Below are positions 9,667 to 57,275 of a DNA stretch of 64,000 nucleotides, piece by piece (the first letter of the stretch is position 1; the number at the start of each line of letters is the position of its first letter). The stretch is from Lutjanus erythropterus. Lineage: Eukaryota; Chordata; Actinopteri; Lutjaniformes; Lutjanidae. The notes below the pieces were generated by a model, which saw nothing but the letters and a program-made list of their open reading frames with translations, did not search any database and was not told the DNA's origin. Both the position numbers and the translations under genes were made by a program. Location of the stretch: positions 3,745,091 to 3,809,090 of the forward strand of contig CM034597.1 of assembly GCA_020091685.1 (NCBI GenBank), given 5' to 3'.

Positions 9667-10740
9667 AGTATCCACATAGGAAAATGCTCTGCCCTGGCTT
9701 GGATCCATAATGACCCACAGTCACATATTCAAACCTCAGGCCCCCGTCCTCTTCCCACCCCCGCTGTGGTGACGTGTGTGTTGCAGGAATCCCCTCTTGG
9801 CTCTCGTTCATGTCTTTAGCCAGCCGTTAGCTGTGGTCTGGCAGCGGGGTCCTGTGACATTTCTTCTTTGTCAGAGCTGTTGCGCCATAACAAGCTGAGC
9901 AGTGGATTTACTGCCAGAGGCTCTTTGTAGGCCAGCCAGGCTAATGGAGTGGAGGCCAGAGCTGGAAAATACCCCGAGTTCTGCTGGAAAAGCCTCCTTG
10001 GACACGCCTGCGACTCTCCAGGGATTGGAGAAGCCGAGAGGGCGCCCGGCCTGGCTCATGTTATGCGCTGGTGTATGAGTAGAATGTACGTCTGAGTTTA
10101 TGCACGTTATGAATGTGTGTGTGTGGTTGCTGAGAGAGGATGTGAGCAAGGGAGAGAAATTGACTCCTCTCTCTGTATTTGGACCTCGTTCCCCTTGGCA
10201 ACAGTGAAAACATGCATACTTTTTTTCATAAAAAGTCCTTTCAGCATGTCTTCAAGCACACACGCTGGGCAGGAGTGTGAGAGTGTGTGTGTAGTCAGTT
10301 TACGGTGTGGTCGTCCGTCCTGTATGTCACGTGCAGGCACAGCAGTGAGCTCATGTGGAGCTGATTTGACGGTTCTCCCCCAGGAATGATGACAGGAATG
10401 ACGGCGGTGAAGATGATGAAATGATGATGGCTTAACAGGGAATGGTCAGTGAAATCACTTAGTGCCTCAGCTGAAGTGATGAGCAGCGGCGGTTAACACC
10501 CTTTCAGCCGTGACGCTGTCCTCTGGCTCTGTGTCCACAGGATGTCCTGCCTGTGGTGTTACAGGTCCGTCAGCAAACAGAAGAGGCTCCCTAATATTGC
10601 CGCACGCATGACAGAGTTCCCCTGTGTATTTAAAGTAATGGAGCAAAACAATTTTCATCAAAACAAACAAAAGATTAGTATCAGGCAGGAGCCCGTCATG
10701 TTTGACATACTGAAGATTCAGTGGTAGGGTAGTGGCAGTT
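9665..10740. other. unassigned sequence, partly GC-rich
   Basis: No exon could be supported. The part at 9770-10070 is GC-richer and free of recognised repeats, so it could be conserved non-coding DNA. There are short GT tracts near 10115 and 10285. The 90-codon ORF at 10117-10389 and its antisense ORF have no motif. Confidence 0.35.
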
Positions 10741-11206
10741 TTACCTTGAGAGCAGCTGGATTTGGAAGATCATGAGATCACATGAGAATCCATCTTGCCG
10801 GGCAAGTTCAGGTTTCTGTTTGTGTCCTAGGAGGGGCAGCTATGAGTATGGTTTTAGGTGTGTTGATGGCAAGAAGCGTCCATGGAAGCGACTCGTCTCA
10901 AACAAACGATGGCGCCTCCTGAAGAGGTCAGCGTAGATACTGTGATAGCATCAGTTATATCAGAACTGGAGAGAATTTCTTCATTGAAAGAAGAGCAAAG
11001 AACAACACTGAAGGCTTTTCTCCATGGAAGAGATGTTTTCACTCTTCTCCCAACCGGCTTTGGCAAGAGTTTGATCCAGTTTTGGAAGTTAGCCCATGTT
11101 GGATGTGATAGACAGACAGTTTATCCAATCACCTTCCAAGTTTTTTCTTTTGAAAGTGCCTGCCCTTTTCCAAACATTCTGTGTAATAAACCATCTGACA
11201 TGTAAC
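10741..11206 (+). repeat. helicase-fragment repeat family, copy A (most coding-intact)
   Basis: Copy of a dispersed family also found at 13449-13600, 13926-14060, 31528-31985, 41392-41880, 52215-52257 and 56985-57275. The left end reads TTACCTTG, then AGCAGCTGGATTTG, then AGAATCCATCTTGCC. The right end is GTGTAATAAACCATCTGACA. Relative to copies D and E it lacks the block with GCAGCCAATCAG before the gene fragment. Across copies the left end (TTACCTTG) and the reverse complement of the right end (TTAACCTGAC) look like a weak short terminal inverted repeat. Confidence 0.75.
10909..11205 (+). pseudogene. 5' fragment of a superfamily-2 (RecQ-like) helicase inside repeat copy A
   Basis: The likely start is ATG at 10909 (MAPPEEVSVDTV), because copy E has the equivalent ATG at 41589; an upstream in-frame ATG at 10882 extends the ORF. 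Residues about 31-35 carry a Q-motif-like LKEEQR. About 22 residues later comes LLPTGFGKSLI, a Walker A (motif I) with the GKS triad. Family knowledge: SF2 DNA helicases continue with the DEAD/DEAH motif and motifs III-VI. All of these are missing here, and after GKSLI the frame runs into unrelated residues until TAA at 11203. A functional helicase is not possible. Confidence 0.65.
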
Positions 11207-12104
11207 ATTAGTGGTGGTTTAATAAAGTCAATTAGGCCTGATGTTGCATTACTTAAAAGTTTAGAGAGAAAAAGATTTTTACTGAATTTATTGCATTGAG
11301 GTTGTAATTCATAGTTTTATCCGTAATTTCTATCAATTTAGTTGAAAAACATGAGGAAATTGTGCATTTATACAAATGGTCATAAATACAGGATTATATT
11401 TAGGGGGAAAGGCTCTGTGGTTTGAGGGAGCTCTCAATGAATTTGAGCTGCAGTAAGGATTCTGTTGAGAGAGATAAAATAAAAACGTACAAAAACATTA
11501 AATCTTAGTTAAATTAACAATACAAAATACTGCATAAGGACGAATTTCATGGTGGAGGGAGCTACTGCACCCAACTGCAAAGGCATGAGCTGATCATCAG
11601 AGTAACAGTGGTAAGTCTAAGATTATGATCTATATGGTGTGTACCTGCAGTTGTGAATGAGCCAAACATTATGAAGCATATTGCAAACAGCTGAAGCAAA
11701 TCATCTGAAGTGTGACTTCAGCTGTACTTCATTTGAGTCAAAGACACTCTTGACACAGAGAAGAACTGAACAGTTAAAGATAACGGTGCAGACACAACAA
11801 ATTTGCTAACATTAAGTAAACAGATCCAGTTCATCTTCTATGAAGAGGAGTTGATCTGGCCACACAATGCATGATGGGTACGGTGCAGGAAGTTGACGGA
11901 CTGTTTGCCATATCTGAATTTGCATAATCACGAATAGACCTCTAGTTTATTCATTCCCGTTTTTCTAGCCTAAAATGTTTTCAGAAACATTTCTGTACTG
12001 CTTACCTAAGAAATGAGAAAGTTTGTGACCTGGCTGCCACATTGAAAAGATCTGAGCACCATTGCTGTTGAGTTTTTCAAATATATTTTTTGGTGCTTTG
12101 AGCA
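11207..12104. other. unassigned non-coding sequence
   Basis: AT-rich, no recognised element or exon. Confidence 0.45.
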
Positions 12105-12650: not shown

Positions 12651-13448
12651 AAGCTCACAACTTTCCACATGCCCAGAATGTAACAAGCTTTGAAGTACTG
12701 ATTATCTGTTCATGTTTCTTGTTGCCATGTTCTGCAATGTTCTCCCCCAGACTGTAAATCACAGCCTGCTGTTAGGTGACCAAAGTTCCATAATTAGATC
12801 ACATAACAGCCAGCGACTTCATTCACTGATGAAGACTGTGAGAAGCAGTTGAATGCTGTGGAAAAAGCTGGTAAATGGGCCATGGGTTTATATTTTGTCA
12901 CAAAATCAAGAACAAATTATAAATGTATCACACTCAAGCATTCACAGTTTGTTCTTTCACCCTTGACTCCACCAGCAGTGATGTCCTTTGCATGCGCTGT
13001 GTAACACTCAAATGTCCTGTTTCACTTTCACTGTATCTGTGTGTGTGTGTGCGTGTGTGTGTATCCATGCAGCCTCCCTCAGTCCCACAGGATGGAGGAC
13101 TTTTGGCCATCTGAGTCAAGGGAAGCGGCAGGTGTGACAGGTCAAGTTCAGGGTCAAGGTTTATAGGCCAGAGGTCTGGAGGAAGGTGGAGACACGCCAA
13201 ACCACAACAGTGTTGTTGACAGGTGGTTTTTGCCAGGTGTTGCTGTCAGATAGCTGCTGCTCACTCATGTGTTGTGTGGGATGTCCAAAGACAACCAGAA
13301 TCTGTAGCTGTGCACTATAGTCTCCACCAGAGGGGGATGCGACTGGACTTAGGAATTTATGACTTTAGACTTAACATAGACTTCAGACAGACGACTCCAA
13401 AGGACTTGACTTTTGTTTTTGATGATGATTAAAGAGTAATTTCTTGTA
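12651..13448. other. unassigned sequence with a short GT tract
   Basis: A short GT run near 13038-13062. No gene or mobile element recognised. Confidence 0.4.
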
Positions 13449-13600
13449 ACCTTGATACGTCAGATGGTTTGTTACACAGAACCATCTGGGTAGTCTTCTA
13501 TAGAAAGTGCAACTGGAAAAGGGCAAGCACTTTCAAAAAAAAAACGTGTCATTGGATAATCATCTGTCTACCAGGTCTAACACAGGCTAACCAATCAGAT
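13449..13600 (-). repeat. helicase-fragment repeat family, copy B (3' end only)
   Basis: Minus-strand copy of the family's right end. The plus strand reads CAGATGGTTTGTTACACAGA, then CCATCTGGGTAG, then GGAAAAGGGCAAGCACTTTC, then CCAATCAGATCAAACTC. No helicase codons remain. A plus-strand left end lies 325 bp downstream (copy C), so the two cannot be halves of one undisturbed insertion. Confidence 0.7.
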
Positions 13601-13925
13601 CAAACTCAATTTCAGAGCGCTTCTGTCCAACATTTCAAAGCAGAGTGTGACGAGCTGGCATGTTGCACTGTAATAGTGGTTCATGAAGTTTTCCAAGTTG
13701 TTGATCTAATCCACTTTTCTGCTGAACTGATCTGAGTGTAAAGGAGAAGTAATCAGCAGTAGTAGGTCATCATGATGAATCTCACTCCTGCATGAATCTC
13801 TTACAACCCTTCTCTCCATTTAGGAGACTTGTAATTGATTACCACAAAATGTCAAATATCTGTGATGGTATGGATTTTTTCTTACCTTGGTGAAAAAGTT
13901 ACCAATTCCCACTGGCTGGCGGTTT

Positions 13926-14060
13926 ACAGCTTACCTTGTGAGGCACCTGGATTTGCAAGATCACATGATAATCCATCTTGCCAGGCTTCAGGTTGTCCGT
14001 TTGTGTCTGCACCAAAACTGGCAGATGTGGGTGTGGTTTTAGGTGTGATTCATAGTATGA
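13926..14060 (+). repeat. helicase-fragment repeat family, copy C (5' end only)
   Basis: Matches the left 135 bp of the family: TTACCTTG, GGCACCTGGATTTGCAAG, AATCCATCTTGCCAGGCTTC, GGTTTTAGGTGTG. The helicase part is absent. Between B and C, 13601-13925 is unassigned. Confidence 0.65.
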
Positions 14061-25656: not shown

Positions 25657-25759
25657 CTTTCTTGTAATGCTTATTTTCATTATCCATTAATATGTCAATC
25701 ATTTTGTCTATTAATTGATTAGTTGTGTGGTCCATAAAATGTCAGAAAACTGTGAAAAA

Positions 25760-25832
<73 letters not shown>

Positions 25833-26015
25833 CTATATATAGTTCTTTCCCAAATGTCTTGTTTTGTCCACAACTCAAAGATATTCAGTTTACTGTCAGA
25901 GAGGAATAAAGAAACTACAAAATAATAAAAAATGACTCAAAATTATTAATCGATTATCAAAATAAATGCTGATTGATTTAATATTGATTAATAATAGATG
26001 AATTGTTGCAGCCCT
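25657..26015 (+). mobile_element. GGGCTGCAAC-type MITE, copy 1 (carries an ATCT microsatellite)
   Basis: Member of the fish MITE with ends GGGCTGCAACTAATGATTAT ... TTGTTGCAGCCCT. The left end is decayed, the right end is intact (ATTGTTGCAGCCCT, ending 26015). The body has CCATAAAATGTCAGAAAACT and TTGTTTTGTCCACAACTC. The family text GAAAAAT runs into (ATCT)n at 25760-25831, so the microsatellite grew inside this copy. Confidence 0.7.
25760..25831. repeat. ATCT microsatellite
   Basis: About 18 perfect ATCT units ending in CTATATATA. Codes for YLSI-type ORFs that are not genes. Confidence 0.95.
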
Positions 26016-26169
26016 GTGTTTTTTGTATGTTGTTAGTTTGTGCAGCTGTTCCTTCCTTTGTTGTGCACAATTTATTGATTGATTGATTGATTTAAAGACA
26101 AAAAATGTTAAAATTTCCACCCAGTGAATCATTTTTTCACTAAAGGCCATGATAATGAATAGACAGCTG

Positions 26170-26340
26170 TGTGTGCACTGTGCATGGTAGGATATCATTA
26201 TTTTTTTTTTAAAAACTGTAATCCAACTAATAATCCACACATTTACTAAATGTAATCTGATCGTCTTTTTAACTGTAATGTAATGCAGTTATGTTTTTCT
26301 ATGTATCCAGATTATGTAATCCCATTGGAAGCCTGCACAT
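26170..26340 (+). repeat. fragment of the GGGAGGGTTAC-type repeat
   Basis: AAAACTGTAATCCAACTAAT, ATGTAATCTGATCGTC, AACTGTAATGTAATGCAG and GATTATGTAATCCC resemble the other half of the element that adjoins the GGGCTGCAAC MITE at three places (29623, 46115, 50337). Confidence 0.4.
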
Positions 26341-29446: not shown

Positions 29447-29821
29447 GATTCAGCTTCTTAAATATGAATATTATTATTTGAGTTGTGGACGAAACAAGAC
29501 ATCTGAGGACATCATCTTGAGCTTTTTCATCATTTTCTGACATTTCATGGATAAAAGAGATTAAATGAGAAAATAATCAACCAATTAATTTATGATGAAA
29601 ATAATTGTTAGTTGCAGCCCTAAAACACTATATTAAGCTAAGTAAGCAATTTTTACCATATTATATATATATATATATATATATGTCATCCAAAATTAAA
29701 AATGTAATCAAGTTACATTACTTAAACATTGTGATACTTGGATTAGGTTAGTGACTACATTTTTAACAGCTGATTGGTAACTGTATCAGAATGCATTTTT
29801 AAAGTAACCCTCCCACCCTGG
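29447..29821 (-). mobile_element. compound MITE, copy 1 (GGGCTGCAAC part plus GGGAGGGTTAC part)
   Basis: The GGGCTGCAAC MITE (29447-29622, minus) joins at its end (GTTGCAGCCCTAAAACAC) to a second family, 29623-29821: AAAATGTAATCAAGTTACAT, GATACTTGGATTAGG, GTGACTACATTTTTAACAGC, AGTAACCCTCCCACCCTGG. It is cut on the left by the LTR element. A TA microsatellite at 29660-29684 lies within the second part. The same junction occurs at 46287 and 50336. Confidence 0.65.
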
Positions 29822-31465: not shown

Positions 31466-31527
31466 ATGATGTTGGTTATAAACTTTCTTTGTTAACCCAG
31501 GCTTTCAGATCTTTGCATATTCACATG

Positions 31528-31985
31528 AAAGGGTTACCTTGCACAGCAGCTGGATTTGCAAGGTCATGTGAGAATCCATCTTTCCAGGCTTCAAATTTTG
31601 TGTTTGTGTCCGCACCAAAAGTGGTGCAGCCAATCAGTGTGCTAGGAGGGACTACTGGCAGCTACAGCCATGGTTTTGGATGTGACAACAGTGAGAATAG
31701 ATACTGTGATAGCATCAGTTATATCAGAACTGAGAGTATTTCTTCATTGAAAGAAGAGCAAAGAAGAACACTGAAGGCTTTTCTCCATGGAAAACATGTT
31801 TTCGCTCTTCTCGACCAGCCTCAGCAAGAGTTTGATCTGATTGGTTGAAGTCAGCCTGTGTTAGACGTGACAGACAGATGGTTCATCCAAACACCTGCCA
31901 AGTGTTTTTTTAAGTGCCTGCCCTTTTCCAAAGTGTTTCTAAGGATGACGGTCCCAGATGGTTCTTTGTAACAAACAATCTCGTG
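31528..31985 (+). repeat. helicase-fragment repeat family, copy D
   Basis: Near full-length member: TTACCTTGCACAGCAGCTGG, GAATCCATCTTTCCAGGC, GGTGCAGCCAATCAGTGTGC (a CCAAT box in promoter-like text), GCTACAGCCATGGTTTTGG, then the helicase part. It lacks the ATG region. The Walker A region is decayed (LLDQPQQEFD in place of LLPTGFGKSL). It ends at CCAGATGGTTCTTTGTAACA. The 135-codon ORF at 31441-31848 runs across it and is not a gene. Confidence 0.75.
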
Positions 31986-32922
31986 TGTCATGTTAACAAA
32001 AGGGGGTGTTTGCTGCATCATTTGACCCCCTGTTCTGCATATGGACAGATCACGACATGCCTATTTCATAATGGAGAGCTGTGGAGAGTATATGGAGAGA
32101 GGAATGCAGTCAGAAGAATACTAAATGATTTAATGTGCTTTCAATACCCATTTATTTCTAATGTGACAACTTACCTTAATTAAACTTCATACAACATGTT
32201 CAAACATATTGATAATGAAGAAGACGTTAATATCACATTAGTTTCAAAGTAAATCAAAGTAAAATGAATGTTACTGACTGAATATTATCAGTAATAGTGT
32301 TCAGTGTTCTGAGCTGTAATAGCAGATCAGGATCGAGCTAAAATCATGCAACATTATTTTAGCATGTGGATGATCTGCTGTGTAAAATTTAGAGTGTTTA
32401 TATGATTTGAAGTAAATCTCTTTAGTGAAACTACTCAACACAAAACAAAGAATGTAGGTAAGAACAGTCAATATGTGAATATTAGAGCAATGTTCTCTAT
32501 CTGTCTATCTGTGGTTACCATCGGAACAACAGCCGCTATGATCAGATACACCTGCACTGGCCTTCCTGATAGAGACACCTGAGCACAGCACGGCCTTTAA
32601 TTTTCTCTCTCTCTCTCACACACACACACACATGCACACAGACACACACACACACACAAACTACTCATTACTCCCCCTTCCTGTAGATATTGAGGAGGTT
32701 CACCTCAGACCTCAGACTGTCAGTGTCTGGGCGTCTGTAATCCTCGAAGCCCCCCTGGAGCACAGAGAGAAATGAGAGCCGCTGACAGAGCGCTGTAACG
32801 TCATCCAGACCAGAGCTACCATCAAATCTTGGGAAATACCTACAAATCCATCTTCGCCAGACGAAGACAGAGAGGGGGAGAGGAAGAGAGGGAGACGGGG
32901 CGAGGGAGGGAGTAGGATAAAG

Positions 32923-39451: not shown

Positions 39452-39772
39452 TCTAGATGTAACAGTGAGATATGACATATAATTCAATATCATATTTTTA
39501 ATGTGAACATATGTCATTTACTTTGTTTTAGAAGCTTGCTTTTAAGAAGCTTAGATATATAAACCAGTGGTGTAGGTTTAGTTTCATCATTGGTAGGGAC
39601 ACATATGAAGTGGTGGGTCCGGGGGATTTTGAATATCAAATACTTAATTTCCTGCAATCCTTACGCACAGATTTCTGTCTTTTCTGCATCAATTTATGAA
39701 TGAAATGTATTTATTAAATAAAACTTCAGGCACCAGGTGACAGTACAAAAATATAATAGAATATAATACTGT
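39452..39772 (+). repeat. left arm of a 321-bp inverted repeat
   Basis: 321 bp from TCTAGATGTAACAGTGAGAT to AATATAATACTGT. The reverse complement of 40397-40717 differs at only 8 positions (about 97.5% identity). It carries ATTTATTAAATAAAACTTC with an AATAAA. It is bracketed on both sides by Tc1-family text, so this arm looks inserted in, or substituted for, part of a Tc1 element. About 95 bp of expected Tc1 text is missing at the junction (recalled consensus). Confidence 0.85.
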
Positions 39773-40396
39773 TGAGCTGCTGCCATGTGATTGGTTGATT
39801 AGATATTTGTGTTAACAAGCAGTTGAACAGGTGTGTGTATATATATATGTGTGTGTGTGCGTGTGTCTGTGTGTAAAAAGAACTTTAGAACAGAACAATA
39901 GAGTACATAGAAATAAGAAGTGTAAGAATATGCAACAAAAATATACAACAGTATATACAACAGTGAAACACATAATATTGTAAATAGTAATGCTGAAGAT
40001 GGGGGACAAGTGTGTTAAGATACACGTATTATAATAAGAGTATAGGTTGATTTAAACGCACAGTATAAATAAATAAATAAATAAATGCAGATGTCAGTGT
40101 AATCTGTGTATTGCACTGATAGCTTCTGACAGTGGTGAAGTAAGTCCAGGTCAGTATATTTACTGACACTGAGGGAAGAGTTGTAGAGTTTGATGGCCAC
40201 AGGTAGGAATGACTTCCTGTGGCGCCACTGAATGTGCTCCTGTGTTTGTCATGGAAAGATAGTCCTCCTGACTGAACTTGTGCTGAGCTTCATTTTGTAC
40301 ACTCAGAATGAAGTCTCTCCTGATTGACAAAGATTTTAGACGTTGATCTACAGAAGAAGAAATATTTGAAAGCATTACAGAATGCCAGAGAGCTTT
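39773..40396. other. spacer between the inverted arms
   Basis: Begins with about 55 bp of Tc1 end text, then a TA/TG-rich run (39832-39876). A retroposon-like segment follows at about 40010-40380 (TTTGATGGCCACAGGTAGGA, ATGACTTCCTGTGGCGCC), a fish LINE/SINE UTR type recalled but not verified. Confidence 0.45.
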
Positions 40397-40717
40397 ACAG
40401 TATTATATTCTATTATATTTTTGTACTGTCGCCTGGTGCCTGAAGTTTTATTTAATAAATACATTTCATTCATAAATTGATGCAGAAAAGACAGAAATCT
40501 GTGCATAAAGATTGCAGGAAATTAAGTATTTGATATTCAAAATCCCCCGGACCCACCACTTCATATGTGCCCATCCCAATGATGAAACTAAACCTAGACC
40601 ACTGGTTTATATATCTAAGCTTCTTAAAAGCAAGCTTCTAAAACAAAGTTAATGACATATGTTCACATTAAAAATATGATATTGAATTATATGTCATATC
40701 TCACTGTTACATCTAGA
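40397..40717 (-). repeat. right arm of a 321-bp inverted repeat
   Basis: Inverted copy of 39452-39772, same length to the base. The outer six bases TCTAGA are palindromic, so ends and a possible target duplication cannot be told apart there. No other flanking direct repeat was seen. Confidence 0.85.
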
Positions 40718-41391
40718 AGCCAAATATCTTCAGTTGCACAGCTGTAAACATCTGTTCTTCCTCTTGATATTAAGGTTGGCAGAACAGACGAAGTTGGGAT
40801 TGTTGGATTTTTTTTAACTTCTCTGAAGCCAAATAAAGTATGATGGCTTATTATGTTGTTAGTTTTTTTTTTTATTGTAGACATGGAGGTCTGAAAATCC
40901 AGCAGTAAAAAAGATTTAAATGTTTTTTCTTTGTTACTTCGACTCTTTGGAATATGTTTGAGAATGTGTGTGGCATTCTGGATCTGGCTTGTGTTAAACT
41001 GTGGTGTCTTGTGAAAGTCCTTTTTAGACAGGGACTAAATTTACTGAACATAGAAAACTTAATGTTTAACAGTAAAATATAATAAAGAATGCTTTGTTGT
41101 TCTGGATAACAACACAAACATGGTACATGCAAACATGATAATTATAGTATAATAAGATGCAATATTTCATTTTCTCTAATTCTCTAAAAATTACACAACA
41201 AGACAGTTTAGTATGTTAATGTTTTGTGCAGATATTCAGTGGAGCTTCCTTGAAATAACATTCAAGTAAATATTTCATTACTCATTCATTTTTGGAAACA
41301 TTACTGGTACTTTCATATTTGCTACTTTTAGGCTGCAGATATACTTTGCTTTTAACTCCACATCCTGTGTCTGCCTGGAGTGTTGGTTGTT
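40718..41391. other. unassigned sequence
   Basis: AT-rich, no recognised element. Confidence 0.4.
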
Positions 41392-41880
41392 ATTTTGCGA
41401 GGCAGCTGGGTTCACAAGATGATGAGATCATGTGAGAATCCGTCTCACCCGGCTTGAAGTTGCCCATTTGTGTTCACACCAAAGTGGTGCAGCCAATCAG
41501 CATCCTCGGAGGGACTGCTGGCAGCTATGGCCATGGTTTTAGGAGTGACGACAGCGAGAGGCGTCCATGAAGGTGACTTGAACAAACAATGGCAGCTCCT
41601 GAACAGGTTAGTGTAGATACTGTGATAGTTATATCAGACCTGGAGAGTATTTCTTCATTGAAAGAAGAGCAAAGAACAGAACTGAAGGCTTTTCTCCAAG
41701 AAAAAGATGTTTCTGCATGCTTCTCACGACCAACTTCAGCAAGAGTTTGATCAGATTGCTTGAAGTTAGGCTGTGTTAGAAGTGATAGACAAATGGTTCA
41801 TCCAATCACCTGCCACCTGTAATTTGAAAGTGCATGCCCTTTTCTAAACAGTTTCTCTGTTTCTCTGGCCTTACAAATTC
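41392..41880 (+). repeat. helicase-fragment repeat family, copy E
   Basis: Near full-length: GAGGCAGCTGGGTTCAC, GAGAATCCGTCTCACCCGGC, GTGGTGCAGCCAATCAGCAT (CCAAT box), GGCAGCTATGGCCATGG, GGCGTCCATGAAGG, ATG at 41589 (MAAPEQVSVDTV). The coding part has an internal deletion and the Walker A is lost (CFSRPTSARV-like text). The 3' block AGACAAATGGTTCATCCAAT, CACCTGCCACCTG is kept. Confidence 0.75.
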
Positions 41881-45600: not shown

Positions 45601-46114
45601 TTGTATGAAAAAAAGCTATCTAAGCACGTATGGCTGTCAGCTAACCACTAATAATAGTCTAATATGTGTTAGCATAGCACTAATGATAGCTGAGCACTAA
45701 TGTTATCTGCTGTTAGCCTATGGAGGGAGTGTGAGGTGGATAGCAGCCGATGTTAGCATATGATTGCGGTTTGAGGAGGCGGTGATAAGAGAACAGATTA
45801 GCGCTGGCGGAAGGTTTTGTGATAAAAGTCTTTGTCACAGCACACAAAGGCCCAGGTGCACTGGATGTGACTGACACAATGTGTACGTGTGTGTCTGCGT
45901 GTGTGTCTACAGACAAAAGAGTAAGTGGATTTTAATTTAGAAGTGCTACTGATCCTTCTTCTGACATTTTAATACATTTATATTTTTATTACATTTTTTC
46001 TAAGAAAATTTGGGGCAATAATTTAACTATTAACTTTATTTTACAGAGTAAAAGAAGAAGTTTGATATCAATGTGCATCTTCTCATCTCACACAGAACGA
46101 TCAACAAATGATGG
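42661..46114. other. unassigned sequence with minor repeat pieces
   Basis: 44085-44170 (minus) is the third piece of the 15.0-kb repeat (ACCTGGTTGAAGTGTAAAG). CA tract at 43733-43752 and CT-rich text at 44480-44520. 45200-45450 has T-rich text ending GTGTATAAATAAACTTG, a possible retroposon 3' end. No gene recognised. Confidence 0.4.
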
Positions 46115-46497
46115 ATTCTAATACAGTTACTGATTACCTGTTAAAAAATGTAGTCAGTAAAGTCAGTATCAGTCACTTATCAGTAAGTATCATGATATCA
46201 AAGTAATGTAACTTGATTACTGTCCATTACTTTTGGATTACTTCAATATAAAATATGGTGAAATTGTTTAGACTAATATAGTGTTTTGATTGAATGATTA
46301 TTTTCATCATCAGTTAATCTGTTGATTATTTTCTCAATTGATCGATTGTTAGGTCCATAAACAGAAAAAGGTGAAAAAAAGTGATCAAAGTCCAAGATGA
46401 CGTCCTCAAATGTCTTGTTTTGTCCACAACTCAAAAATATTCATTTTACTGTTAGAGAGGAGCAAAGAAACCAGAAAATATTCACATTTAAGAAGTG
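46115..46497 (+). mobile_element. compound MITE, copy 2
   Basis: The second-family part is 46115-46286: CAGTTACTGATTACCTG, AATGTAACTTGATTACTG, TATAAAATATGGTGAAATTG, TTTAGACTAATATAGTG. It joins the GGGCTGCAAC part at about 46287: TGAATGATTATTTTCATCAT, GTCCTCAAATGTCTTGTTTT, CAGAAAATATTCACATTTAAG. The right end is truncated. Confidence 0.6.
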
Positions 46498-48709: not shown

Positions 48710-50010
48710 AACAACACGTACATTATAATCACTCATACATCACTGGTGATGCAGCTTGAAATTTCTAATCCAATCCTGCCACTTGTTTTCTCACCAACCT
48801 GTCTTCCTTGATCTATGTTTCTTAGACAAAATTATTCCTAAACTATTCCTTGTACACCTGTGTGCTCTTTCAACTATAGCCGCAGTCAGCTGTGTTTGTT
48901 GTTATTTCACACACATCACACTATGGTGGCTGTGGTGTATCAACATATCATCATCATATTTTATAACTGCAAATGCATTTCTCATCGAAACTAGAACTTG
49001 TAGAAAATGTAGAGAATACAGGAGGTAGAGCTGAATATTCCTGCCTGACTTGATTGTCTTCAGATCACCTTCAAAGCAGAGAGAGTTAAGTTTCTGAACA
49101 GTGCAGTGCACCTCGCTCTCTCCTGTTAAAAGTCACTGTAGCTCACCCAGTATTCTGATGGCTCCATTTCTCCCTCTCACTGCAATCAATTTAAAGAGTA
49201 CTCCAGCCAAAAAGATTTTAAAAGTGTCATAATCAGCTGGAGATGCTAGTCGCCCTCCACAGCATGATACCAATCATTTTTGTTAAAGTGAGACTACCAG
49301 TTAGAAACAGTGTTAACTTTTGTAATTAAAAGGCCCAGCCACAGTTACTGTGGCCCACCCAAAATTGAAATCCTGGCACTGTGCCTGGTGTAGTGGTGAG
49401 GATGCAGAGCTCAGCGTTATTAAGAAGACTGAATAAGCACCAAATGTTTATGACATGAAGGTTACAGGATGCAACCTGCGGTCTGCTGTATGAAAGCTGG
49501 ACACTCTACTCACTCACCCACAACGACCTCCAAGCCCCTGCTGTCCACCCTGCTGAATAAAGCACACATTACTTCCTGTATTGGTGCTGAATGTTGGCCT
49601 TGGACATAAATGGTGAGGTGCAGAACTGAAAAAAACACGGGCATGGTTAGTTCTGCCTTTGTGGCGACCAAAACCCGATGAAGCAAGTGCAACACAGTGT
49701 GATCTGTGAAGTGCTTTATACTGTGCATAATGTACAGGCAGAGCTACAGACAAAAAAGATGTAAGCAGATTGCAGATACATTAAGCAAAGATGGGGATTA
49801 TTAGTGAGATTATAATTTAAAAATAAAGAATGATATCTTACCATGCACAGTTCACACACAGCTGACAATTCATTATCATGACCTCCAGTGAAAACATGCT
49901 TCACTGGGTGCAAATTTCAATATTTTGTGTCTTTAAATCAATCAGTCAATGAATAAACTGAACACAACAAAGGAGGAAACAACTGGACAACAACAAACAT
50001 AAAACACTCA
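48709..50010. other. unassigned sequence
   Basis: At 49190, TTTAAAGAGTACTCCAGCC looks like one end of another TTAA-type fish repeat. No gene recognised; antisense ORFs at 49510-49753 are unsupported. Confidence 0.4.
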
Positions 50011-50498
50011 GAGCTGCAACAATTAATCTATTATTGATCAACTATTAAATCAATCTGCATCTATTTTGATAATTAATCATTTTGAACCATTTTGAATTAA
50101 AAAATGTTCAAATTCTCTGACTTCAGCTTCTTAAATGTGAATATTTTCCAATTTCTTTCCTCCTCTCTGACAGTAAACTGAATATTTTTGGGCTATGAAC
50201 AAAACAAGACATTTGAGGACGTCATCTTGAGCTTTGATCAGCATTTTTCACAATTTTCTGATATTTCACAGACAAAACAACTAATCAATTAATTGACAAA
50301 ATCATTTATGAAAATAATCATTAGCTGCAGCCCTAAAACCATGACATTAGTCTAAACAATGTCACCATATTTTATATTGTGGTAATCCAAAGTGATGCAA
50401 AGTAATAAAGTTACATTATTTTATACACTTTAATATTTGTGATACTTGGATTGTGTTACTGACTACATATTTTAACAGGTAATTAGTAACCCTCCCAG
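50011..50498 (-). mobile_element. compound MITE, copy 3 (most complete)
   Basis: The GGGCTGCAAC part is 50011-50336 with both ends present (GAGCTGCAACAATTAATC on the left, TTAGCTGCAGCCCTAAAACC on the right). It joins the second family (50337-50498): AGTCTAAACAATGTCACC, ATATTTTATATTGTGG, GTGATACTTGGATTGTG, TTTTAACAGGTAATTAG, TAACCCTCCCA. The junction is the same as in copies 1 and 2. Confidence 0.7.
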
Positions 50499-52214: not shown

Positions 52215-52257
52215 CTTAACCTGACCTGGTTTGTTACACAGAACCATCTGGGAAATT
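52215..52257 (-). repeat. helicase-fragment repeat family, copy F (3' end only)
   Basis: TTAACCTGACCTGGTTTGTT, ACACAGAACCATCTGGG is the family's right end on the minus strand. It is cut after about 43 bp, where the fold-back element begins. Confidence 0.55.
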
Positions 52258-52613
52258 TTCCTTGGAATATTAGATAAAAAGTCATAATTGTGAATTAAAA
52301 AGTCGAAATTATGAGATTCAAAGTCATTAAAAGTCATTATTATGAAATTAAAGTCATTATCATAGATTAAAACATCAAAATTATGAGATAAAATTCATTA
52401 TTATGAAATAAAAAGATAAAATATGAGATAAAAGTCATTATTATTAAATAAAATGTTAAAATTATGAGATAAACTGATAATTATGGGGAAAAAGTCAACA
52501 TTTTCTTTTTTTTTAGACTTGTTATCTCATAATTTCAACTTTTAAATCTCACAATCAGAACTTCTTTTATCCCGTACTTATAACTTACCATGAGGATATT
52601 TCTTTCTTCTCTG
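52258..52613. mobile_element. fold-back element with ATTATGAGATAAAAAGTC arms, copy 2
   Basis: Long left arm of AAAGTCATTATTATGAAATA and AAAATTATGAGATAAA units. A shorter right arm starts near 52520 (TTATCTCATAATTTCAACTT), with the terminus CCATGAGGATATTTCTTTC as in copy 1. The left terminus is eroded. Confidence 0.6.
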
Positions 52614-52669
52614 GTTGAAATGGGCTTCCTTACATTTGCTGCACTGCTGGGGAGCACTGGGATTGAGGT

Positions 52670-53000
52670 AGGGCTGCGACTAATGATTATTTTCATCATT
52701 GATTAATCGATGAATCCAGAATTGAGAGAGAATGGATTAGTGGTTTAAAATGTCAAAAAATCGTGAAAATTGTTGTCCAAAGATCAAGATGATGGATGTC
52801 CTCAAATGTCTTGTTTTGTCTAAAACACAAAGATATTCAGTTTACTGTCATAGAGGACTAAAGAAACCAGAAAACATTCACATTTGAGAAGTTGAAATCA
52901 GACATTTTTCAATTCAAAAATGTTTCAAAACAATGAAGCAATTATGGAAATAGTCGCCAGTTAATTAAATAATTGATTAATTAATTAATCGTTGCAGATT
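52670..53000 (+). mobile_element. GGGCTGCAAC-type MITE, stand-alone copy
   Basis: Starts GGGCTGCGACTAATGATTAT; the body has TCAAATGTCTTGTTTTGTC and GAGGACTAAAGAAACCAG; it ends ATTAATTAATCGTTGCAG. Not joined to the second family. The right end is decayed after GCAG. Confidence 0.75.
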
Positions 53001-56600: not shown

Positions 56601-56984
56601 TTTGGACCAGGTTTTCCAATAGTTATGAAGTGTATTTTCATTCAGATCTTTTTGAATGCTTAATGAGAAAGTAAACTTTGATATCATATATGTATTTCTA
56701 CTATTTCAAGCCAAGTTTTGCTTTAAGTCCATGCTAGGTTAGCATGACTCTTCTCCCTGATCACCTCCTCTTCTCCTGGAGTGGTCCATAGCTGGGTGGT
56801 TGACAGATATTGTGTGCACGTTGTTGATCATCTCAAGGTGTCACAGGTACAGCATCTACATTCACTGCTGTTGTGTTTAACTAGTTACTACAAACAGGTT
56901 GATGGACGATCACAGCTCAGTTGGCTCCAGTGCCCTCAGTACAGGTTAATCTGCCTTTACTGAGACATCCCTCTAACCTGACAC
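53641..56984. other. unassigned non-coding sequence
   Basis: GT tract near 55432-55465, poly-T at 55724-55738. The 97-codon minus ORF at 54151-54444 has no motif. Text at 54262-54298 resembles the reverse complement of the window's last 40 bases; see rejected items. Confidence 0.45.
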
Positions 56985-57275
56985 GCCATATGGTTTGTTA
57001 TACAGAACCATCTGGGAAGTCGTCTTGAGTAACTGTTTGGAAAAGGGCATGCACTTTCAAAACAGTTTAGCAGGTGATTGGATGAACCATCTGTCTATTA
57101 CGTCAAACAAAGGCTAACTTCAGCCAATCAGATCAACGCCCGTAACTGCCAGTAGTCTCTCCTAGGATGCTGATTGGCTCACCAATTTTGGTTTGGACAC
57201 AAACAGATAACTTGGAGCCTGGTTAGATGGAGTCTCACATGATCTTGCAAATCCAGCTGCCTCTACATTCCATTT
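56985..57275 (-). repeat. helicase-fragment repeat family, copy G, helicase part deleted
   Basis: On the minus strand it runs from the 5' text (GAATGTAGAGGCAGCTGGAT) through AATCAGCATCCTAGGAGAG and CTACTGGCAGTTACGGGCG, then directly to TTGATCTGATTGGCTGAAGT and the 3' end (CCAGATGGTTCTGTATAACA). The block from the ATG to Walker A is missing. This copy shows both family ends with a clean internal deletion. Confidence 0.75.

Follow-up and report, generated by a model that had tools for sequence, protein, structure and literature searches.

The stretch of DNA analysed here, called the window below, is a 64-kb segment of the Lutjanus erythropterus genome (C7:3745091-3809090; genome of 937.6 Mb in 444 contigs) in which the beginning of a RecQ-like helicase recurs between two shared flanks. 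The question raised by this locus is whether such pieces descend from a mobile element or are copies of a host gene, and, if they descend from an element, of which kind it was. The window was scanned by BLASTN with each copy and by nhmmer with a profile of the family, and one repeat family was found as seven pieces on both strands. The nhmmer profile gave eight hits, all with E ≤ 9.2e-20, and zero hits at E ≤ 0.01 in the reversed window. The pieces and the short duplications that flank two of them are as follows:

10732..10740, target-site duplication to the left of copy A, GTGGCAGTT, 7 of 9 bases equal to the right flank
10741..11210, plus strand, copy A, with both ends, 5' non-coding part, helicase start and right block
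10909..11076, plus strand, N-terminal helicase piece of copy A, 56 codons translated as MAPPEEVSVDTVIASVISELERISSLKEEQRTTLKAFLHGRDVFTLLPTGFGKSLI, with LPTGFGKS as Walker A
11211..11219, target-site duplication to the right of copy A, GTGGTGGTT
13447..13607, minus strand, copy E1, right half only, cut near the TTGATCTGATTGG breakpoint
13931..14049, plus strand, copy E2, left end only
31525..31533, target-site duplication to the left of copy D, ATGAAAGGG, 7 of 9 bases equal to ACAAAAGGG
31534..31995, plus strand, copy D, with both ends but without the start of the helicase text
31996..32004, target-site duplication to the right of copy D, ACAAAAGGG
41390..41868, plus strand, copy C, running from the left end through the helicase piece into the right block, most of which is kept (nhmmer E=2.6e-139)
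about 52217..52261, minus strand, piece F, right end with palindrome only
56974..57272, minus strand, copy B, coding part deleted, join at TTGATCTGATTGG

All the places at which the sequence-only reading had listed a copy proved real by BLASTN and nhmmer; its pair at 13449/13926, spanning 13447-14049, has to be divided, E1 (minus strand, right half) and E2 (plus strand, left end) being halves of two different copies on opposite strands. The helicase text is carried by window copies A, C and D. Copy D lacks consensus positions 165-216, the segment holding the start codon, and copy C has lost its right end. Copy B, with an intact right end and altered outermost left bases, lacks consensus positions 139-359, which is the coding part. 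Piece F came from BLASTN and not from the nhmmer profile: its alignment to B spans 28 bp at 96% identity (E 1.9e-7), and that to E1, at 52227-52260, spans 34 bp at 91% (E 2.7e-8). The ten outermost bases of F were assigned by eye.

When the genome was searched for DNA similar to copy A, 3324 places came up as first-look candidates, and 40 of them were given a score. The family consensus of 524 bp was obtained from 43 aligned copies, four from the window and 39 ranked by similarity to copy A, a set that is not random. The left end (25 bases, up to 3 mismatches) matched 1187 places genome-wide and the right end (26 bases, up to 3 mismatches) 1584 places, and the reversed end patterns under equal criteria gave 0 matches in the whole genome. 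By this end-pattern criterion the window contains two left ends and one right end, the remaining window ends being more diverged. Divergence from the consensus had a median of 0.114 substitutions per site and ranged from 0.05 to 0.24 (43 copies, CpG sites excluded); the sampled copies are old. The distribution along the chromosomes was also recorded, places on contigs of unseen length being excluded. Copies crowd near chromosome ends, with a median relative distance of 0.26 for 92 of the 98 places of a list that is ranked and not random, and exact right ends lie at a median relative distance of 0.27 from the nearest chromosome end (80 of 86), as compared with 0.5 for a uniform distribution.

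The consensus ends read TTACCTTG...CAGGTTA; the consensus starts with TTACCTTGCGAGGCAGCTGGATTTGC and finishes with the complement of TAACCTGACACGCCAGATGGTTTGTT, the right-end sequence of the family being AACAAACCATCTGGCGTGTCAGGTTA. The terminal inverted repeats are imperfect, with 15 of 24 consensus positions matching, a value reached by shuffles of one end at a frequency of 0.0001 (20,000 shuffles), and the weak short inverted ends suggested earlier are thus confirmed. As single-stranded DNA, the last 45 bases are predicted to fold back into a stable hairpin (z -4.8) that stops 12 bases short of the terminus.

Flanking duplications, which the sequence-only reading had proposed to look for, were found at a length of 9 bp. 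Both ends could be placed in 12 of the 43 copies, and after L057 was dropped (right end not credible) 11 copies were usable. In these 11 both-ended copies the flanking 9-mers of the same copy were 65% identical, and over 169 register offsets, the true one included, flank identity had a mean of 26% (sd 5%). Assumed duplication lengths of 5-8 and 10-14 bp gave flank identities of 24-41%, with the peak at 9 bp. The matches per copy were 2, 3, 4, 5, 6, 6, 7, 7, 8, 8 and 8 of 9 bases. At least 7 of 9 bases matched in five of the 11 copies versus none of 110 control pairs taken from different copies; three of the 110 control pairs reached 6 of 9 and none was higher, and six of the 11 both-ended copies stood at 6 of 9 or below. 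The two cases with 7 of 9 are window copies A (GTGGCAGTT/GTGGTGGTT) and D (ATGAAAGGG/ACAAAAGGG). The duplicated 9 bp vary in sequence. Since target-site duplications of 9 bp flank the copies, the family is a cut-and-paste element and not a set of gene copies; from the duplications we infer a mechanism in which insertion was carried out by a cut-and-paste system duplicating 9 bp.

A single ORF of 56 codons, in the helicase frame, was read in the consensus. It begins at base 198 as MAAPEEVSVDTVIASVISELESISSLKEEQRTTLKAFLHGKDVFTLLPTGFGKSLI, downstream of a CCAAT box, is followed by a stop at the junction TTTGATCTGATTGG, and corresponds to the initial 56 codons of a RecQ-like helicase gene, as far as Walker A. 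The Pfam DEAD domain was matched by the consensus ORF at domain positions 3-30 (E=7.3e-4) and by the helicase piece of copy A (E=5.5e-4), both under the curated cut-off, and the best solved structure by sequence was a RecQ (PDB 4tmu, E=0.0035). Helicase coding thus takes 168 of the 524 consensus bases, about a third, and is still recognisable.

Protein-level selection on this piece was considered and rejected, the apparent conservation vanishing when copies were chosen otherwise. In the similarity-ranked 43 copies, codon positions 1-3 varied at 0.074, 0.050 and 0.062 per site versus 0.130 in non-coding sequence; with a local-identity filter the values were 0.073, 0.049 and 0.062 versus 0.128, 0.091 and 0.085 in the non-coding stretches. 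In a second sample of 16 copies chosen by the left end alone, from the top of 40 listed places, codon positions 1-3 varied at 0.129, 0.091 and 0.093, and the non-coding sequence at 0.061 in the query stretch and 0.113 and 0.074 in the other two. No third-position excess was seen in either sample (43 and 16 copies). As coding and non-coding parts vary alike in the left-end sample, the conservation that had appeared in the ranked set is read as a sampling effect, and is attributed to ranking with a query centred on the coding part. Fifteen of the 43 copies keep the ORF length of 171 bases with ATG and without inner stop, which requires no selection because the set was chosen by similarity to copy A. 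We conclude that the helicase text is a passenger and not a working part.

Some copies outside the window are longer. L025, L059, L060, L064 and L070 continue past Walker A as GKSLIYQLAPL or near it, and past the usual junction they read ...GKSLIYQLAPLV or a near variant. The usual form would arise if GAGTTTGAT/TTACC joined GTTGAT/CTGATTGG through the common TTGAT. L025 and L059 share a later join, CTGG/TTGATC, and copy B of the window has the join GGGCG/TTGATC; from these differing joins it follows that at least three left points meet one right point. In six longer copies (L060, L064, L067, L069, L070 and L072) the internal break, which follows directly on the helicase piece, is occupied by roughly 40-90 bases in inverted orientation that derive from the element's own right and left ends. 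The inverted pieces were shown by nhmmer in L060, L070 and L072 and recognised by eye in L064, L067 and L069, and no clear 9-bp duplication was seen around the inverted stretch in these six copies. It may be repair filler or a nested miniature.

The parent and its relatives were searched for in the genome with a recQ family model and with a longer-piece query, an approximate animal RecQ-type sequence. The best relative was a diverged remnant at C5:12258533, which continues the DEAD domain as far as DEVH (Pfam DEAD 42-127, E=0.0011, under the curated cut-off). Three weaker remnants were found, two on C4 and one on C8, and one of these (L078) also reaches DEVH; all four remnants end between query residues 142 and 157. 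At only about one-half identity to the helicase piece of the family, and with no match to the family ends found at it, the C5 remnant is kin and not the direct parent. In L078 (about 1240-1760) and L079 (about 1150-1690), both diverged RecQ-like remnants, a CCAATCAG box stands about 110 and 175 bases, respectively, before the helicase match, as in the window family, which points to an older clade of helicase transposons in this genome.

No transposon helicase piece past the DExH box was found in the genome searches with the recQ model and the approximate RecQ-type query. With a query running from the region of residues 142-157 into the second helicase domain, the C5 piece was matched at its start (E 4.1e-7), and the one other match was weak (E 0.14) and lay in a host locus. 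The second-domain matches of the longer-piece query were a host locus on C12, which the recQ model had picked up as well, and two places on C24, at which no family ends were found and which we take, by eye from their motifs, to be other DEAD-box helicases. No transposon Helicase_C piece was found in these second-domain searches of the genome. The recQ model gave 26 listed matches, from 47 of 115 candidates scored, with no intact transposon helicase among them, and two hits of this model, on C7 and C1, were set aside by eye as ordinary DEAD-box genes. Scans of viral and of prokaryote contigs yielded no relative. The full-length copy with helicase motifs II-VI plus a transposase that the sequence-only reading had named as support was not found in the helicase searches of the genome, and, with no transposon helicase piece beyond the DExH box, the parent is either extinct here or unrecognised.

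MITEs are short, high-copy elements with inverted ends, target duplications, no transposase and several internal deletions. The present family resembles them in all these respects, having terminal inverted repeats, a duplication of fixed length (9 bp) and a high copy number without a transposase of its own, and differs from them in that about a third of its consensus (168 of 524 bases) is helicase coding. The earlier view of it as a non-autonomous relative of a helicase-encoding mobile element, which at that point had no named parent family, is supported by the 9-bp duplications, the inverted ends and the copies reading past Walker A, and AcademH is proposed here as the candidate parent family. 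An AcademH lineage of Academ DNA transposons was reportedly described by Kojima in 2020. In one account AcademH combines a helicase with target duplications of 9 or 10 bp (PMC10045372), and another connects the DEAD and Helicase_C domains with AcademH, KolobokH or Helitron (PMC10799480). The family is like AcademH in deriving from a DNA transposon with a helicase and in its 9-bp duplication, which fits the 9 or 10 bp of AcademH, and unlike it in showing only the helicase start, together with decayed kin up to the DExH box. Of the DEAD and Helicase_C domains of AcademH, the DEAD start was seen in the family and the DEAD middle in a relative, both under the Pfam cut-off. The comparison with AcademH covers the helicase and the length of the target duplication.

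Taken together, we regard it as very likely that this is one old MITE-like family with terminal inverted repeats, derived from an internally deleted transposon with a RecQ-like helicase whose parent was probably AcademH. Granted a transposon, AcademH is the probable parent, at a confidence clearly below that; we infer this superfamily placement from the 9-bp duplication and the helicase. A larger transposon would have carried a RecQ-like DExH helicase gene on its left side, with the start codon about 200 bp from the left end, and its internal deletion would have given the short non-autonomous copies. A transposase made elsewhere would then have recognised the ends and moved the short copies in trans. 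The larger parent element probably belonged to the helicase-encoding branch of Academ and has either died out in this genome or escaped recognition.

MuDR elements combine a target duplication of 9-10 bp with a MULE transposase. A Mutator-like (MuDR) element, or one of another superfamily duplicating 9 bp, that had captured a RecQ-like helicase is possible but distinctly less probable as the source. The duplication length of the family fits MuDR too, and Kolobok lineages are described as carrying differing accessory proteins, RecQ helicase included (PMC9587614). Against it, helicase and 9-10 bp duplications are already combined in AcademH according to the account cited above, so capture need not be assumed. 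Somewhat less probable still would be an undescribed animal transposon that made 9-bp duplications, had a free-standing RecQ-like helicase gene starting about 200 bp from its left end, and used a transposase from a lineage other than AcademH. Repeated deletion to one right breakpoint would then have produced its short forms, with repair leaving, in some copies, an inverted miniature of the element's own ends at the helicase break.

That these are non-autonomous KolobokH elements, KolobokH being the RecQ-helicase lineage of Kolobok, is very improbable. KolobokH is, like the presumed parent, a DNA transposon encoding a RecQ helicase, and the ends of the family contain TTA(A)-like letters, but Kolobok has TTAA 4-bp duplications and 5'-RR...YY-3' ends and KolobokH is reported from fungi only (PMC9587614), whereas the duplications here are 9 bp long and varied in sequence and the ends are TT...TA. 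KolobokH, failing both the TTAA duplication test and the RR...YY end test, was ruled out.

That the copies derive from one host RecQ gene, as segmental duplicates or retrocopies of its first exon, is just as improbable, notwithstanding the resemblance of the family text to RecQ helicases. Fifteen helicase loci (12 of the 26 recQ-model matches and three of seven matches to the approximate RecQ-type query; 48,135 bases, partly overlapping) were fetched and compared with the family. No nhmmer hit was obtained between the family and these 15 loci even at E ≤ 10, the best protein match in them was 36% identical over 33 residues, and the family has defined ends and target duplications. A host helicase gene sharing the flanks, named in the sequence-only reading as what would speak for gene-derived copies, was accordingly not seen among the 15 loci. 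Helitron helicases are PIF1-like. A Helitron or other rolling-circle element can be dismissed as the least probable source, for in spite of the helicase text and the hairpin near the right end, the family has terminal inverted repeats and target duplications, which Helitrons lack (PMC4522978), its hairpin ends 12 bases before the right terminus, and its helicase is RecQ-like.

Other repeats were noted in the window. Positions 39452-39778 and 40391-40717 form a 327-bp inverted repeat pair, 97% identical, whose arms are separated by about 610 bp and may be the long inverted termini of a younger element. A tandem-like array with internal repeats of 74-81% identity lies at 1910-2536, and another dispersed family occurs on both strands at 25697-26259, 29461-29796, 46111-46496, 49773-50490 and 52669-52997.

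The helicase-bearing family was not recognised in the literature searched; Repbase and Dfam, which may well include it, lay outside that search. Its description adds a high-copy, helicase-derived family of short transposons with a clear 9-bp duplication. The copies are numerous in this animal genome and represent, in a new instance, a well-known type of genomic parasite. For annotation it serves as a warning, such LPTGFGKS hits being transposon fragments and not genes. With the ends of the family as a guide, the autonomous parent could be sought in related genomes, which would test whether Academ elements encoding a helicase were mobile in this animal lineage.
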